DNA of 64,000 bases from Celeribacter sp. HF31. GTDB lineage: Bacteria; Pseudomonadota; Alphaproteobacteria; Rhodobacterales; Rhodobacteraceae. Below, piece by piece: positions 2,909 to 59,666 of this stretch. The stretch is from the NCBI RefSeq assembly GCF_011806455.1, contig NZ_JAATOT010000004.1, forward strand, positions 124,001 through 188,000, given 5' to 3'. How positions within the stretch are numbered: the first letter of the stretch is position 1; the number at the start of each line of letters is the position of its first letter. The notes beneath the pieces were generated by a model. The model was given only the letters and a program-made list of their open reading frames with translations. It was not told the DNA's origin and did not search any database. A program made the translations under genes and the position numbers.

Positions 2909-3229
2909 GGGCCGTTCTCCTTTAAAGGGGCCGTTGACGATATGCTCCATCTGGGGACGAAGCGGCGAATTTTACACCCCGAGCGCTGCCATCAAACACT
3001 GACAACGCGGCAAATGCACATTTGCCCCCGTGGGCGTATAACGCTGACGGGGGGCGATCCTGGCCTATGGCCTGAGGACCGGAAGATGCACACTTCCGGG
3101 AAATTTGATCCGGTCTCTACGCGCGTGCGTAAGAGGAGTCAAGACAAAGCGCATATGGCCGACTGGATTGCCAAGCCTGTTGCGCTACACTTTTCATACG
3201 CCCGTTTCTACACCCGGTGGGAGGGACAG
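2909..3229. other. Intergenic region with three inverted repeats, divergent promoters
   Basis: This 321-nt stretch separates ffh from a divergent glycosyltransferase gene and must hold both promoters, though no clear -35/-10 pair was identified. It carries GCAAATG-ca-CATTTGC (3010-3025), CCCCCG...CGGGGG around 3026-3053, and CCGGAAG-7-CTTCCGG (3079-3099). Two of them contain ATGCACA. No gene or known RNA family was recognised. Confidence 0.4.
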
Positions 3230-17910: not shown

Positions 17911-18042
17911 GACGCGTCTTTCCCTCTGCTCTTAACCCGTGCTCAAAAGTTGCGTCTTGATAGCACGGAAAGGCGCGCCCCCTGCAAGCAGGTATCGCCA
18001 ATGGGAGCGGTTTATTGGCAAGGCGTCTCCGGTTAAAACGTC

Positions 18043-18075
18043 TCACATCAAATCTGAATCACAGATTTGGTGTGA
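18043..18075. repeat. Long imperfect hairpin upstream of polA
   Basis: TCACATCAAATCTG and CAGATTTGGTGTGA pair as a 14-bp stem with one G-U (mismatch on the other strand) and a 5-nt loop. The core AATCTGA...AGATT resembles hairpin 2 of the 115-bp repeat family. It lies between the polA start and the globin-like gene stop, with the partial repeat copy next to it. Confidence 0.55.
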
Positions 18076-18102
18076 AGCGCGCACAAGGTTTATATGTTGC
18101 AC

Positions 18103-18147
18103 TGCGTTTTTTCTTTTCCTGTTTCAGAGAAAAAGAAAAACGCTTTA
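18103..18147. repeat. Partial, degenerate copy (D) of the 115-bp TIR repeat
   Basis: GCGTTTTTTCTTTT pairs with AAAAGAAAAACGC, and the 3' end GAAAAACGCTTTA is identical to the terminal repeat of the three full copies. Its last three bases (TTA) are the stop codon of the globin-like gene on the minus strand. Read from that gene, the hairpin follows immediately after the stop. Confidence 0.55.
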
Positions 18148-18567
18148 CGCCACAGCGCGTGATTTCGCGCCCTCCAACATGCCTTTGGCGATAAAGTGCA
18201 AGACCGTGCGCCAGGCGTGAGCGTGTTCGATCGTCCAGTCGTCTCCGGTGTGTTCGGCAAAGACGTCAATAATCAACTCGCTGATAAGATCGTAGGTGTC
18301 TTTCCAGCTGCCGTAATTGGCATATTCTCGACCCAGACCATGCAATGTTGCAAACAGGGCGCCGGGATGATCGAGCGACAAAAGCGATAGCTCGATAATA
18401 CTTTCCAAAGTACGGCCCCGGTCGTTGAGCGAGGTATGGTATTGCCCGTCGAATTCCGGCGCCATCGCGGCAAAGCGTTTGTACACCTCTTGCAAGGCGT
18501 CAAGACGCACAGGTGCGAGACGCCGAAAATTATTCCGAACCAAAGTGATTTGTTGGATCGTTAGCAT
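18145..18567 (-). CDS. Globin-like protein with Tyr at the expected proximal His
   Basis: A 140-residue single-domain protein with globin features: it opens MLTIQQITLVRNNF, has EVYKRFAAMAPEFDG (the B/C corner region) and LHGLGREYANYGSWKDTYDLISELI, which aligns with the globin F helix (usual form RRHxxYGV followed by Y). At the position of the heme-binding proximal His this protein appears to have Tyr. It may bind heme differently or not at all. Start 18567 begins the globin pattern; 18582 is the alternative. The stop codon is part of a repeat element. Confidence 0.7.
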   Translation of the reverse strand: MLTIQQITLVRNNFRRLAPVRLDALQEVYKRFAAMAPEFDGQYHTSLNDRGRTLESIIELSLLSLDHPGALFATLHGLGREYANYGSWKDTYDLISELIIDVFAEHTGDDWTIEHAHAWRTVLHFIAKGMLEGAKSRAVA

Positions 18568-18674
18568 GTCCCGACCTCTCAAAAAGCTGATGTCTGAGAG
18601 GTTAGGTGCAAGACTTTAACAAAGGGAAAACGCCAAACGCATTTTCACCTCGTTTCAGAGCCTTGCCGAAAGAT

Positions 18675-45108: not shown

Positions 45109-45223
45109 TAAAGCGTTTTTCAAAAAACTTGAGGCACTCAATTTTTGAAAAACGCAGCAAGATCAATTCAGTGTCGCAACGTTTTTCGCTCAATCTGATT
45201 CAGATTAAACGAAAAACGCTTTA
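45109..45223. repeat. 115-bp TIR repeat, copy A
   Basis: Ends in perfect 13-bp inverted repeats, TAAAGCGTTTTTC and GAAAAACGCTTTA. Hairpin 1 pairs GCGTTTTTCAAAAA (45113-45126) with TTTTTGAAAAACGC (45142-45155) around TTGAG-gca-CTCAA. Hairpin 2 pairs CGTTTTTCG (45180-45188) with CGAAAAACG (45210-45218) around AATCTGA-t-TCAGATT. Its last three bases are the stop codon of the minus-strand gene starting at 45784. Same orientation as copies B and C. Confidence 0.85.
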
Positions 45224-45784
45224 GTAGCCGAAGCGGCCCAAGGCGCGGTAGTCGATGCTCTCCAAAAGCGGCAGAACCACATCGCGCGGTTCGCCCGAGG
45301 CCTGAACCAAAACGCGACCCTCAACCAAGGCGGTGAGATCGCCCTCATTTTCGAGGAATTTCTCGCGCCCCACGCGCACGGTTTTCATGCCCATGGCGCC
45401 TGCGTTGGAAATCATGCCGCCCATCATGGCGATCATCGGACTGTCCACCACGATGGAAATGGTGAAACTGTCGCCCGTCTCATTGGTGTAGCTTTGCGCC
45501 GCCGCCGTGCCGCCGCCCATCATGGCAAAACCGGCCACGGTGTCGGTGTCTTCTTCTGCGGTCCAGCCTTCGGGAGCGGCGGGCAGGAAATCGGCCAAGG
45601 CGCCGGTCTGCATTTCTTGCAACAATTGTTTGGCGTAATCCAACTCTTCGAGCGCATAGGTGACGTCGCCGTCTTCATAGGCTTTGAGCGCGCTTTGCAG
45701 CGTGTCGGTGACGTCATCCGCCATGGCGCCTGTCGCCACGAAAAGGCCAAAGCCGGTGCCGAGTAGAACAGTTTTAAGTGTCAT
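45221..45784 (-). CDS. Hypothetical periplasmic protein
   Basis: A 187-residue protein with a signal peptide (MTLKTVLLGTGFGLFVATGAMA) and a soluble domain. An alpha-helical part (DVTDTLQSALKAYEDGDVTYALEELDYAKQLLQEM) is followed by an Met/Gly-rich strand part (GGMISNAGAMGMKTVRVGREKF). GGAGGGGACCTC precedes the ATG at 45784. The stop codon is part of repeat copy A, so its transcript ends in a hairpin. No family recognised beyond resemblance to small proteins of unknown function in the group. Confidence 0.8.
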   Translation of the reverse strand: MTLKTVLLGTGFGLFVATGAMADDVTDTLQSALKAYEDGDVTYALEELDYAKQLLQEMQTGALADFLPAAPEGWTAEEDTDTVAGFAMMGGGTAAAQSYTNETGDSFTISIVVDSPMIAMMGGMISNAGAMGMKTVRVGREKFLENEGDLTALVEGRVLVQASGEPRDVVLPLLESIDYRALGRFGY

Positions 45785-45935
45785 GAGGTCCCCTCCGATG
45801 ATGATAAGATCATAGAAAACCGGCCCGACGTCTGTCACAAGGGGAAGAATAGAGATCGGACCTCATCGCTGATGAGGCGCATTTAAGACGTATGATTTTA
45901 TGGTGTTAGGCCAGCTCATATTTGGAGGCAAAGGC

Positions 45936-46359: not shown

Positions 46360-46474
46360 TAAAGCGTTTGTCAAAAAACATGAGGCACTCAATTTTTGAG
46401 AAACGCAGCAATATCTATTCAGCGTTGCAAGGTTTTTCGCTCAATCTGATTTAGATTAAACGAAAAACGCTTTA
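46360..46474. repeat. 115-bp TIR repeat, copy B
   Basis: TAAAGCGTTTGTC at the left and GAAAAACGCTTTA at the right, with the same two hairpins as copy A and one mismatch in the TIR pair. It lies between two plus-strand membrane protein genes and does not overlap a stop codon. Confidence 0.85.
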
Positions 46475-58338: not shown

Positions 58339-58454
58339 TAAAGCGTTTCTCAAAAAAACCTGAGTCACTCAATTTTTGAGAAATGCTGCAATATCAATTC
58401 AGTGTGGCAACGTTTTTCGCTCAATCTGATTCAGATTAAACGAAAAACGCTTTA
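58339..58454. repeat. 115-bp TIR repeat, copy C
   Basis: TAAAGCGTTTCTC at the left and GAAAAACGCTTTA at the right, with both hairpins conserved. It starts 13 nt after the GT32-like stop, and its last three bases are the stop codon of the convergent AbrB-type gene. Same orientation as A and B. Confidence 0.85.
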
Positions 58455-59543
58455 GTATTTGAGCCGCTCCGCCAACCGGGTCAGCAAAGAGGGGGCGACA
58501 GCCACAAGGATCACGATCCGCACAAGGTGGTGGATCGAGATATAAGCCACCTCCGCATGCATCGCCAAAGCCACCAGAGACATCTCCGTCAGCCCGCCGG
58601 GTGCATAGGCCAAGAGCACCTGTTCGACGGTCTGGCCGAACATGCCGTGCAACAGCACCGCAAAACCCAAGGACAACCCCATGGTGATCAGGGTGCCGCC
58701 CAGCGTGAGCAACAGGGTTTCGCCCACCAGTTTGGGTTTGGCGCCACGAAAGCGACAGCCCATGGTGGTGCCAAGGACAATCTGCGCGATGATCACGATG
58801 AGACCCGGTGGCGAGGAATGCGTCAGCCCTGTCATATGCACAGCGCCTGACAAAAGCATCGGCCCCAAAAGCCCCGGCGCGGGGAATTTGAGTTTGGTCC
58901 CGATCCAATTGCCCAGAACTGCACAGGCCAAAAGGATCGCGCCGCTCATCAGAGTGAGGCTCTCCCCCTCGGCATGAAGCGGCACGCCACGCACCTCAAG
59001 CCCGAGCACCACGCGAAACCACAACGCGATGATCGAGATCGTCACCACGATCCGCCCGGCATGGGCCAGAATGATCCGCTTTTCATCGCCGCCCAAAGCG
59101 CCGCCGATCACCGTCATCTCATTGAGCCCGCCGGGCATGGCGGAGAAGAACGCGGTCACCGGATCGAGGAGCCCTATCTTGATGTAGAACGGCACGACCA
59201 GAATGGCGGCAAGTACGAGATAGACCGCCAGCCCGGCCAGCGAGAGGCCCCATTGGCTCAGGTGGTGAAAAGTGTCCGAGTCGAAGCTTGAGCCTAACAT
59301 GACGCCGATCACCGGGATCACGAGGGGGCGAAACCGCCCCGAGGTCTCAAGCGGCGCACCGGCCATGACGCAGACGAAAATCACCAACATCGAGCCCAGC
59401 ATCCACGGCAGGGGCAGCCCGGCGAGGTAAAACCCGGTGCCGCCCAATGCGCCGAGAACCAGCGTCAGACTGTTGCGAAACGCGCGTGTCTTGTCCAAGG
59501 GTGCTGTCAAAATCCGATCCCGAGCCTGTCGTTGCGTCACCAT
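58452..59543 (-). CDS. AbrB family (putative ammonia monooxygenase-type) transporter
   Basis: A 363-residue inner-membrane protein made of two repeated AbrB_dom units, each with a [25 protein letters not shown] loop (first near residue 45, second near residue 250), about ten helices, [13 protein letters not shown] and [13 protein letters not shown]. These paired GG loops are the family mark. The database name ammonia monooxygenase is historical and not functional. Start 59543 has only a weak ribosome site; GTG 59591 is the alternative. The stop codon is the end of repeat copy C. Confidence 0.85.
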
Positions 59544-59666
59544 AGCGAGGCTGTCCGCAGGGGCAAGGCGGTGAGATTTGGGATTTTGCACAGGTCTTGC
59601 GCAACCGGGGCTTGGCGCTGCCTATGGTTTCGGCTTTGCTCCGCGGTTTTTCTTAGATTTGGGTCC

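Follow-up and report, generated by a model that had tools for sequence, protein, structure and literature searches.

Double-hairpin repeats of Celeribacter and other Rhodobacterales as probable IS630-type MITEs often lodged at stop codons

The closest known counterparts of the repeat family described here are the CIR repeats of Caulobacter and the RUP element of pneumococcus. CIR (CcrM-associated intergenic repeats) are ~110 bp long, lie between genes, terminate in TA and consist of two long stem-loops with a linker between them, with a GANTC sequence at or near a terminal loop; their mechanism of mobility is described as needing more information (PMC2229807). Among the MITEs treated in this 2007 review, an insertion sequence (IS) with similar ends was known for RUP alone (PMC2229807). 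ERIC elements at gene 3' ends in Yersinia alter the transcript level (PMC2229807, PMC10969869), and IS711, whose target is YTAR, has a preference for the Bru-RS1/2 repeats (PMC2266754). Open-licence papers on MITEs of Rhodobacteraceae, Roseobacter, and Rhodobacter and on repeats of Celeribacter include, among the matches listed, none whose title or abstract describes the present family, which is weak evidence that no description exists. The family very probably consists of IS630-type MITEs that use TA as their target, often lodge at stop codons, are mobilised in trans by IS630-family (Tc1/mariner-like) transposases, and carry hairpins that presumably serve the element.

The window, that is, the whole analysed stretch of 64,000 nucleotides from Celeribacter sp. 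HF31, carries four copies of the family (Table 1). Copies A, B, and C can be aligned over 115–116 bases, have TAAAGCG and CGCTTTA as their ends, and form two hairpins each, as the original prediction from the sequence had proposed. Their folds have z-scores between −4.2 and −5.5 for the + strand and between −5.9 and −6.9 for the − strand, and in each of the six folds none of 200 shuffled sequences was as stable. Paired stem differences had also been noticed, and they are real: what separates the consensus of one main variant from that of the other is column 11 (T/C) together with its pairing partner, column 41 (A/G), and two unpaired positions in the spacer. Copy D, formerly taken for a degenerate 45-bp partial copy (18103–18147), turned out to be a whole type II element. 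Type II elements, collected by an exact-end scan and from single ends in the own genome and in a sister species, resemble type I in length and ends but have different stems. No Rfam 15 covariance model matched at the elements, either in the window or at six element loci (0 at E up to 1). The sole Rfam match in the window, at 3017–3068 (− strand), is the ffh sRNA (RF01793), which scores 58.5 bits (gathering score, 35).

Table 1. Copies of the repeat family in the window and their parts
Feature	Coordinates	Strand	Description
Copy A	45109..45223	+	type I element, variant IA, 115 bp; AAGCG..CGCTT unit (111 bp) plus TA at each end
Copy A, hairpin 1	45113..45155	+	outer arm is an IS630-type end, inner arm its complement; from fold and covariation
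Copy A, hairpin 2	45179..45219	-	best fold on the - strand; loop with GATTC (GANTC)
Stop codon TAA of gene 45221-45838 (-)	45221..45223	-	provided by the end of copy A; G007 and G001, empty here, have a native TAA
Copy B	46360..46474	+	type I element, 115 bp; also present at the orthologous site of G007, empty (single TA) in G001 and G017
Copy C	58339..58454	+	type I element, 116 bp; final 3 bases serve gene 58452-59591 (-) as stop codon
Copy D	18034..18147	-	whole element of type II, 114 bp; reaches into the stop codon of gene 18145-18582 (-)

The own genome (G000) is a 96%-complete draft of 3.6 Mb in 13 contigs. The whole-genome search suggested along with the original prediction did yield further copies: with copy A as the query and 40 of 46 candidates scored, 30 near full-length copies with 88–100% identity and two weaker ones were found. 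The common orientation seen in the window is not maintained genome-wide, since 13 of the 30 are forward and 17 reverse. In the sister species G007, the scored candidates include 15 copies with 100% identity (one over positions 3–115 only) and six with 99%, which shows that multiplication was recent. Copy A was found in seven of 20 genomes of the genus (the own genome included; in G015, only part of it); 21 genomes from other genera yielded no match. The end pattern TAAAGCGTTTYTC has 51 matches in the own genome and 83 in G007, versus 0 and 0 for the reversed pattern, and is thus not a matter of chance.

A gapped form of the end pattern, applied to one genome per species (84,980 species), detected at least 113 stretches; among the matches listed, 76 of the 80 titled stretches come from Rhodobacterales (Celeribacter, Roseovarius, Aliiroseovarius, Pelagivirga, Roseicyclus, and others). 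The element set comprises 108 elements from these stretches, four from the window, and two of type II, 114 in all, of which 106 are distinct and 96 of these form alignment A2 (copy D begins there at 18033, one base too long; the pairing, GANTC, and stop-codon counts use 18034). Locus L141 yielded no element, and L077, L105, L128, L147, and L187, which lack the family layout, were left out of all counts other than that of Y-TA-R at MITE flanks. The elements are mostly 113–117 bp long. With a covariance model, the family was detected in 16 of the 20 genomes of the genus (E up to 0.001, both strands counted, 150 candidates scored per genome) and in at least 24 of 394 genomes of the bacterial family (E up to 1e-6, nine candidates scored per genome). 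Among 385 genomes of the class, the model found elements of 101–104 bases in six genomes from three other alphaproteobacterial families (L382–L398). Of the readable ones, 11 in number, nine have TA at both ends and all have GANTC at a distance of 22 bases from an end, and most fold as two hairpins.

One element of 101–104 bases has relatives on plasmids of Agrobacterium, Martelella, and Nitratireductor. No plasmid match was obtained for copy A; another member of the family matches 10 plasmids of Roseovarius and Aliiroseovarius. Viral contigs were considered as carriers and rejected, as none of five pattern matches has the GAAACGC/GCGTTTC inner arms when inspected by eye. Additional types, in which the ends are altered (TAAAGCGTCACGCC, TAAAGCGTCCTGCC, and others), occur at L266, L270, L272, L282, L285, L286, and L288; by eye they have complementary inner arms, and their ends resemble those of the ISs of L201 and L202.

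The manner of insertion is apparent from orthologous sites. Site A is occupied in the own genome; G007 and G001 lack the element there and have a single TA (..AAT-TA-GTAGCC.. in G007); in G017, G004, and G015 a TGA stop is found instead. The empty counterparts of site B likewise have a single TA (..CAGC-TA-AGCT..). A single TA in the empty relatives and a TA at each end of the element indicate an inserted unit with TA duplication, and the comparison with the empty sites delimits this unit as AAGCG..CGCTT (111 bases) between two TA. At the flanks of the MITEs, Y-TA-R fits 189 of the 218 bases of 109 sites; at those of IS630-family ISs, it fits all 28 bases of 14 ISs. At the orthologous site of copy C in G001 (L303), TAAAGCGTTTTC, a dozen bases resembling an element end and perhaps a remnant, is followed by host sequence.

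TA duplication at the empty sites contradicts the view of these repeats as REPIN (REP doublets) that depend on a RAYT tyrosine transposase for their spread, a view for which an inverted hairpin pair, an intergenic location, and tens of copies might speak. A Y1_Tnp match does occur in the element-bearing relatives G016 and, partially, G004; there is none in the own genome or in G007, both of which are rich in window-type copies, and the element ends resemble IS630 ends. Without a Y1 (RAYT-type) transposase in these two genomes, the original reading as a REP-like structural repeat finds no support, and REPIN can hardly be the correct description.

IS630-family ISs with similar ends are present in relatives. 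G004 has a 1100-base IS630-family element (L039) with the ends TAAAGCGTTTCGGCTTTAACCTGAGACATA and TAGAGCGTTTCGGCCTGAACCTGAATCG, whose transposase pieces match DDE_3 and the NCBI IS630 model; its relatives occur in 44 of 394 genomes of the bacterial family (E up to 1e-30). From 30 such loci, 15 had an inverted end pair and 13 were used (L211 and L218 were left out), giving, together with L039, 14 ISs with 28 ends. Twelve of the 13 relatives are 1054–1064 bases long (typically ~1056 bp). When each of the 28 IS ends is compared with its best MITE end, 19 to 26 of 27 bases are identical, the ISs of L213, L214, and L217 reaching only 19–21. Many MITEs resemble the ISs in having one end like CTGAGACA and the other like CTGAATCA, a difference that is not independent evidence because it was used for setting the MITE orientation (ambiguous in 16 of 106). 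The transposase of L039 (1387–2427, − strand) consists of two pieces in one frame split by a single stop; in several of its relatives (L196–L205), the two longest stop-free stretches are in different frames, which might represent programmed frameshifting; the transposase of L197 has two overlapping reading frames.

Copy number, near-identity of copies, single-TA empty sites, and IS630-family ISs with similar ends support the MITE reading of the original prediction. A transposase with matching ends, proposed there as something to look for, was found in relatives but not in the own genome: DDE_3 has no match in the draft G000 or in G007, G001, G016, or G017 and is present in G004. An IS630 resident in the window's genome was therefore rejected as the partner. 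Exact end pairs at IS distance were not seen in the own genome or G007, except for ends of two neighbouring elements; single ends fetched from these two genomes mostly belong to elements of type I or II in which the opposite end is altered, and a few are solo or broken. The co-occurrence of ISs and MITEs in the same genomes is weak (five of 24 MITE genomes, Fisher p = 0.12), and MITE ends track the subfamilies of IS ends no better than column-shuffled ends do (22.8 versus 22.4 of 27). In G048, a genome of the bacterial family, about ten end pairs TAAAGCRTCGAGC lie at IS distance (an IS630 relative), with a few unpaired ends and no pair at MITE distance.

The location of the elements relative to genes was analyzed with a simple ORF scorer rather than annotation. 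Of 34 elements in the own genome, 21 lie between co-directional, 11 between convergent, and 2 between divergent genes; none is inside a gene. The intergenic location originally described is nearly right, with the qualification that copies A, C, and D share exactly three bases with the adjoining gene, namely its stop codon. The TAA at the element end is the stop codon of a neighbour in 19 of the 34 elements, whereas stop codons account for 12–22% of the non-coding TA or YTAR sites of this genome (p from 2e-5 to 6e-10). Among the loci of the repeat family at large, 30 of 101 elements are at stop codons (four on both sides) against 6–11.5% expected, and two of 101 are inside genes; in G004, the count at stop codons is seven of 20. 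Twelve of 20 young copies in G007 are seemingly at stop codons, but five of these are inside copies of one repeated frame, which reduces the count to seven of 16 independent sites.

In those five G007 copies (L342, L344, L345, L351, and L354), the type I element interrupts a transposase-like frame, with HTH domains before it and an rve core after it. The interrupted frames are 97–99.8% alike over ~1660 bases, one of them only as far as the end of the element. The element seems here to be transported by another mobile element.

Because gene truncation could mimic placement at a stop codon, 14 of the 19 stop-codon sites of the own genome were checked against four relatives (copy A was compared separately, and L016, L070, L072, and L076 were left out). 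At 12 of the 14, TAA, TAG, or TGA stands exactly at the site in at least one of the four relatives; at L007 and L028, TGA is the only stop found in relatives without the element. At L005 and L013, the stop of the relatives lies a few codons off. Insertion into the TA of a stop codon is presumably tolerated because the stop is rebuilt by the element end. Alternatively, the elements may have a true preference for stop codons as targets.

The elements also lie preferentially toward gene 3' ends: element sides facing 3' ends outnumber those facing 5' ends by 43 to 25 in the own genome and by 127 to 71 in the family, and convergent settings outnumber divergent ones by 11 to 2 and by 39 to 11, respectively. 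This bias, the enrichment at stop codons, and the fact that five of the 14 tested sites are filled in a relative too would fit domesticated 3'-end RNA elements, maintained by the host, in which the first hairpin after the stop protects or ends the mRNA of the neighbour. The 3' bias is, however, equally expected from tolerated insertion, and RUP, SPRITE, and IS elements of pneumococcus are likewise biased toward convergent genes (PMC3049150). By eye, no U-run follows the hairpins of copies A–C. The elements may plausibly serve the host at mRNA 3' ends.

An inner arm complementary to the outer one distinguishes the MITE ends from the IS ends. The complement reaches 8 or more of 10 bases at 192 of 212 MITE ends (mean 8.9) and at none of the 28 IS ends, where the best 10-base complement is 4–7 (mean 5.2). 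In 98 elements (eight of 106 were unparsed), the outer and inner arms pair at 75.9% and 74.2% in the two hairpins, compared with 46.1% and 43.6% after shuffling of partners (highest of 1000 shuffles, 51.7% and 49.7%); pairing between the two outer arms, at 51.4%, does not exceed what shuffling gives (mean 48.7%, highest 52.7%). Among 77 dissimilar elements, arm pairing is 78.5% Watson-Crick versus 47.6% in shuffles (144 of 154 ends, 10 dropped). In 41 type I copies, changes affect 76 of 2778 stem positions versus 70 of 1599 positions in loops and spacer (p = 0.005; this and the other p-values are optimistic because the copies are related). Selection on folding, as suggested in the original prediction, is supported as a statistical pattern, the covariation of arms. 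The pattern may stem from selection or from mutation, concern RNA or DNA, and benefit the host or the element.

The mismatches between arms, read from the outer end, are G.T in 120 cases and A.C in 30. The G.T share is 80% versus 67% in shuffles (p = 0.0004 if mismatches are independent), and part of this excess stems from base composition. It is present at both ends and hence on opposite strands, a pattern that a strand-symmetric cruciform fails to explain; a single strand, taken from its outer end inward, accounts for it. The inward course of the G.T excess from each outer end and the smaller number of changes in stems would also be compatible with 3'-end RNA elements. Arm pairing is nevertheless scarcely higher at ends facing gene 3' ends (78.3%, 155 ends) than at those facing 5' ends (76.3%, 84 ends), with 82.3% at 55 stop-codon ends (ends over 200 bases from a gene were left out). 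This near-equality favors a cause at the level of the element, namely selection in transposition or for persistence, and maintenance of the family by the host as 3'-end RNA elements appears unlikely.

The main rival to such element-level selection is mutational. Template switching between the arms of a quasi-palindrome during replication could copy one arm onto the other, and would produce compensatory changes within a hairpin and none between the outer arms, as observed, with an effect scarcely dependent on neighbouring genes. By itself, it would not favor G.T over A.C, and it leaves the absence of inner arms in the ISs unexplained. Template switching as the origin of the matching arms is possible, although we consider it rather doubtful.

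The GANTC sequence raises the question of a function in methylation. Of its 79 occurrences, 69 stand at a distance of 22 bases from the nearer end of the element, and it recurs in the readable elements of the other alphaproteobacterial families, and the CIR repeats share the layout (PMC2229807). The repeats might accordingly be methylation-linked regulatory sites like CIR, the GANTC near the loop being their working part and mobility incidental. On the other hand, GANTC is found in only 73 of 143 elements (30 of the 77 dissimilar ones, compared with 35% of shuffled ones) and is absent from copy B. Moreover, 13 of the 14 ISs have GANTC in exactly one end, and the GANTC of the MITEs may thus be inherited from a transposon end. 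This regulatory reading is improbable.

For IS630-type MITEs, the following course of events can be proposed. An IS630-family transposase, supplied in trans, would move the elements by cut-and-paste; the supplying enzyme has no match in this genome. Insertion takes place at Y-TA-R with duplication of TA, and where the target is a stop codon, the TAA at the element end restores the stop. Each end hairpin would be retained for the benefit of the element itself, in transposition or persistence, rather than for a host function, and it would presumably act in a single-stranded state, RNA or DNA, read from the outer end. An aid of hairpins to transposition, if true, would to our knowledge be new for the IS630/Tc1/mariner group. 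The stop codon appears to represent a harmless landing site, remade by the TAA end of the element, and parent-type ISs without inner arms offer a clean natural test of the importance of the MITE hairpins. A much broader proposal is that the family, the 101–104-bp elements, and perhaps CIR form one alphaproteobacteria-wide class of double-hairpin, TA-ended MITEs spread by IS630 transposases, which dock at stops by virtue of the TAA end and transpose by way of a single-stranded hairpin at each end, dispensable for the parent IS, perhaps with timing by CcrM methylation of the GANTC in one end; this is speculative and would probably not hold as a whole. A candidate transposon partner is suggested for alphaproteobacterial intergenic repeats, the mobility of which was formerly open in the 2007 review (PMC2229807).

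Compared by description only, CIR and the present family are alike in a length of ~110 bp, TA ends, two linked stem-loops, a position between genes, and an alphaproteobacterial host. They differ in that the account of CIR in PMC2229807 lists no terminal inverted repeat, whereas the family has clear terminal repeats, a TA duplication, and an IS630 counterpart. RUP, again by description, is similar to the family as a 107-bp MITE with a TA target, ends like those of IS630-Spn1, and enrichment between convergent genes (PMC2229807, PMC3049150). It also resides inside other ISs, as five of 20 G007 copies reside inside one rve-type transposase frame. The host of RUP belongs to a different phylum, and stop-codon targets are not mentioned for RUP in the relevant parts of PMC2229807 and PMC3049150. 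The Bru-RS1/2 repeats of Brucella are, like the family, palindromic repeats of alphaproteobacteria, a likeness by description that provides a lead only (PMC2266754). ERIC and Correia elements share with the family the nature of TA-ended MITEs with folding transcripts (PMC2229807, PMC10969869), but fold end to end and occur in other taxa (PMC2229807). In the usual fold of bacterial repeats, the 5' end pairs with the 3' end (PMC2229807), whereas in the present family the partner of each end is the inner arm of the same hairpin.
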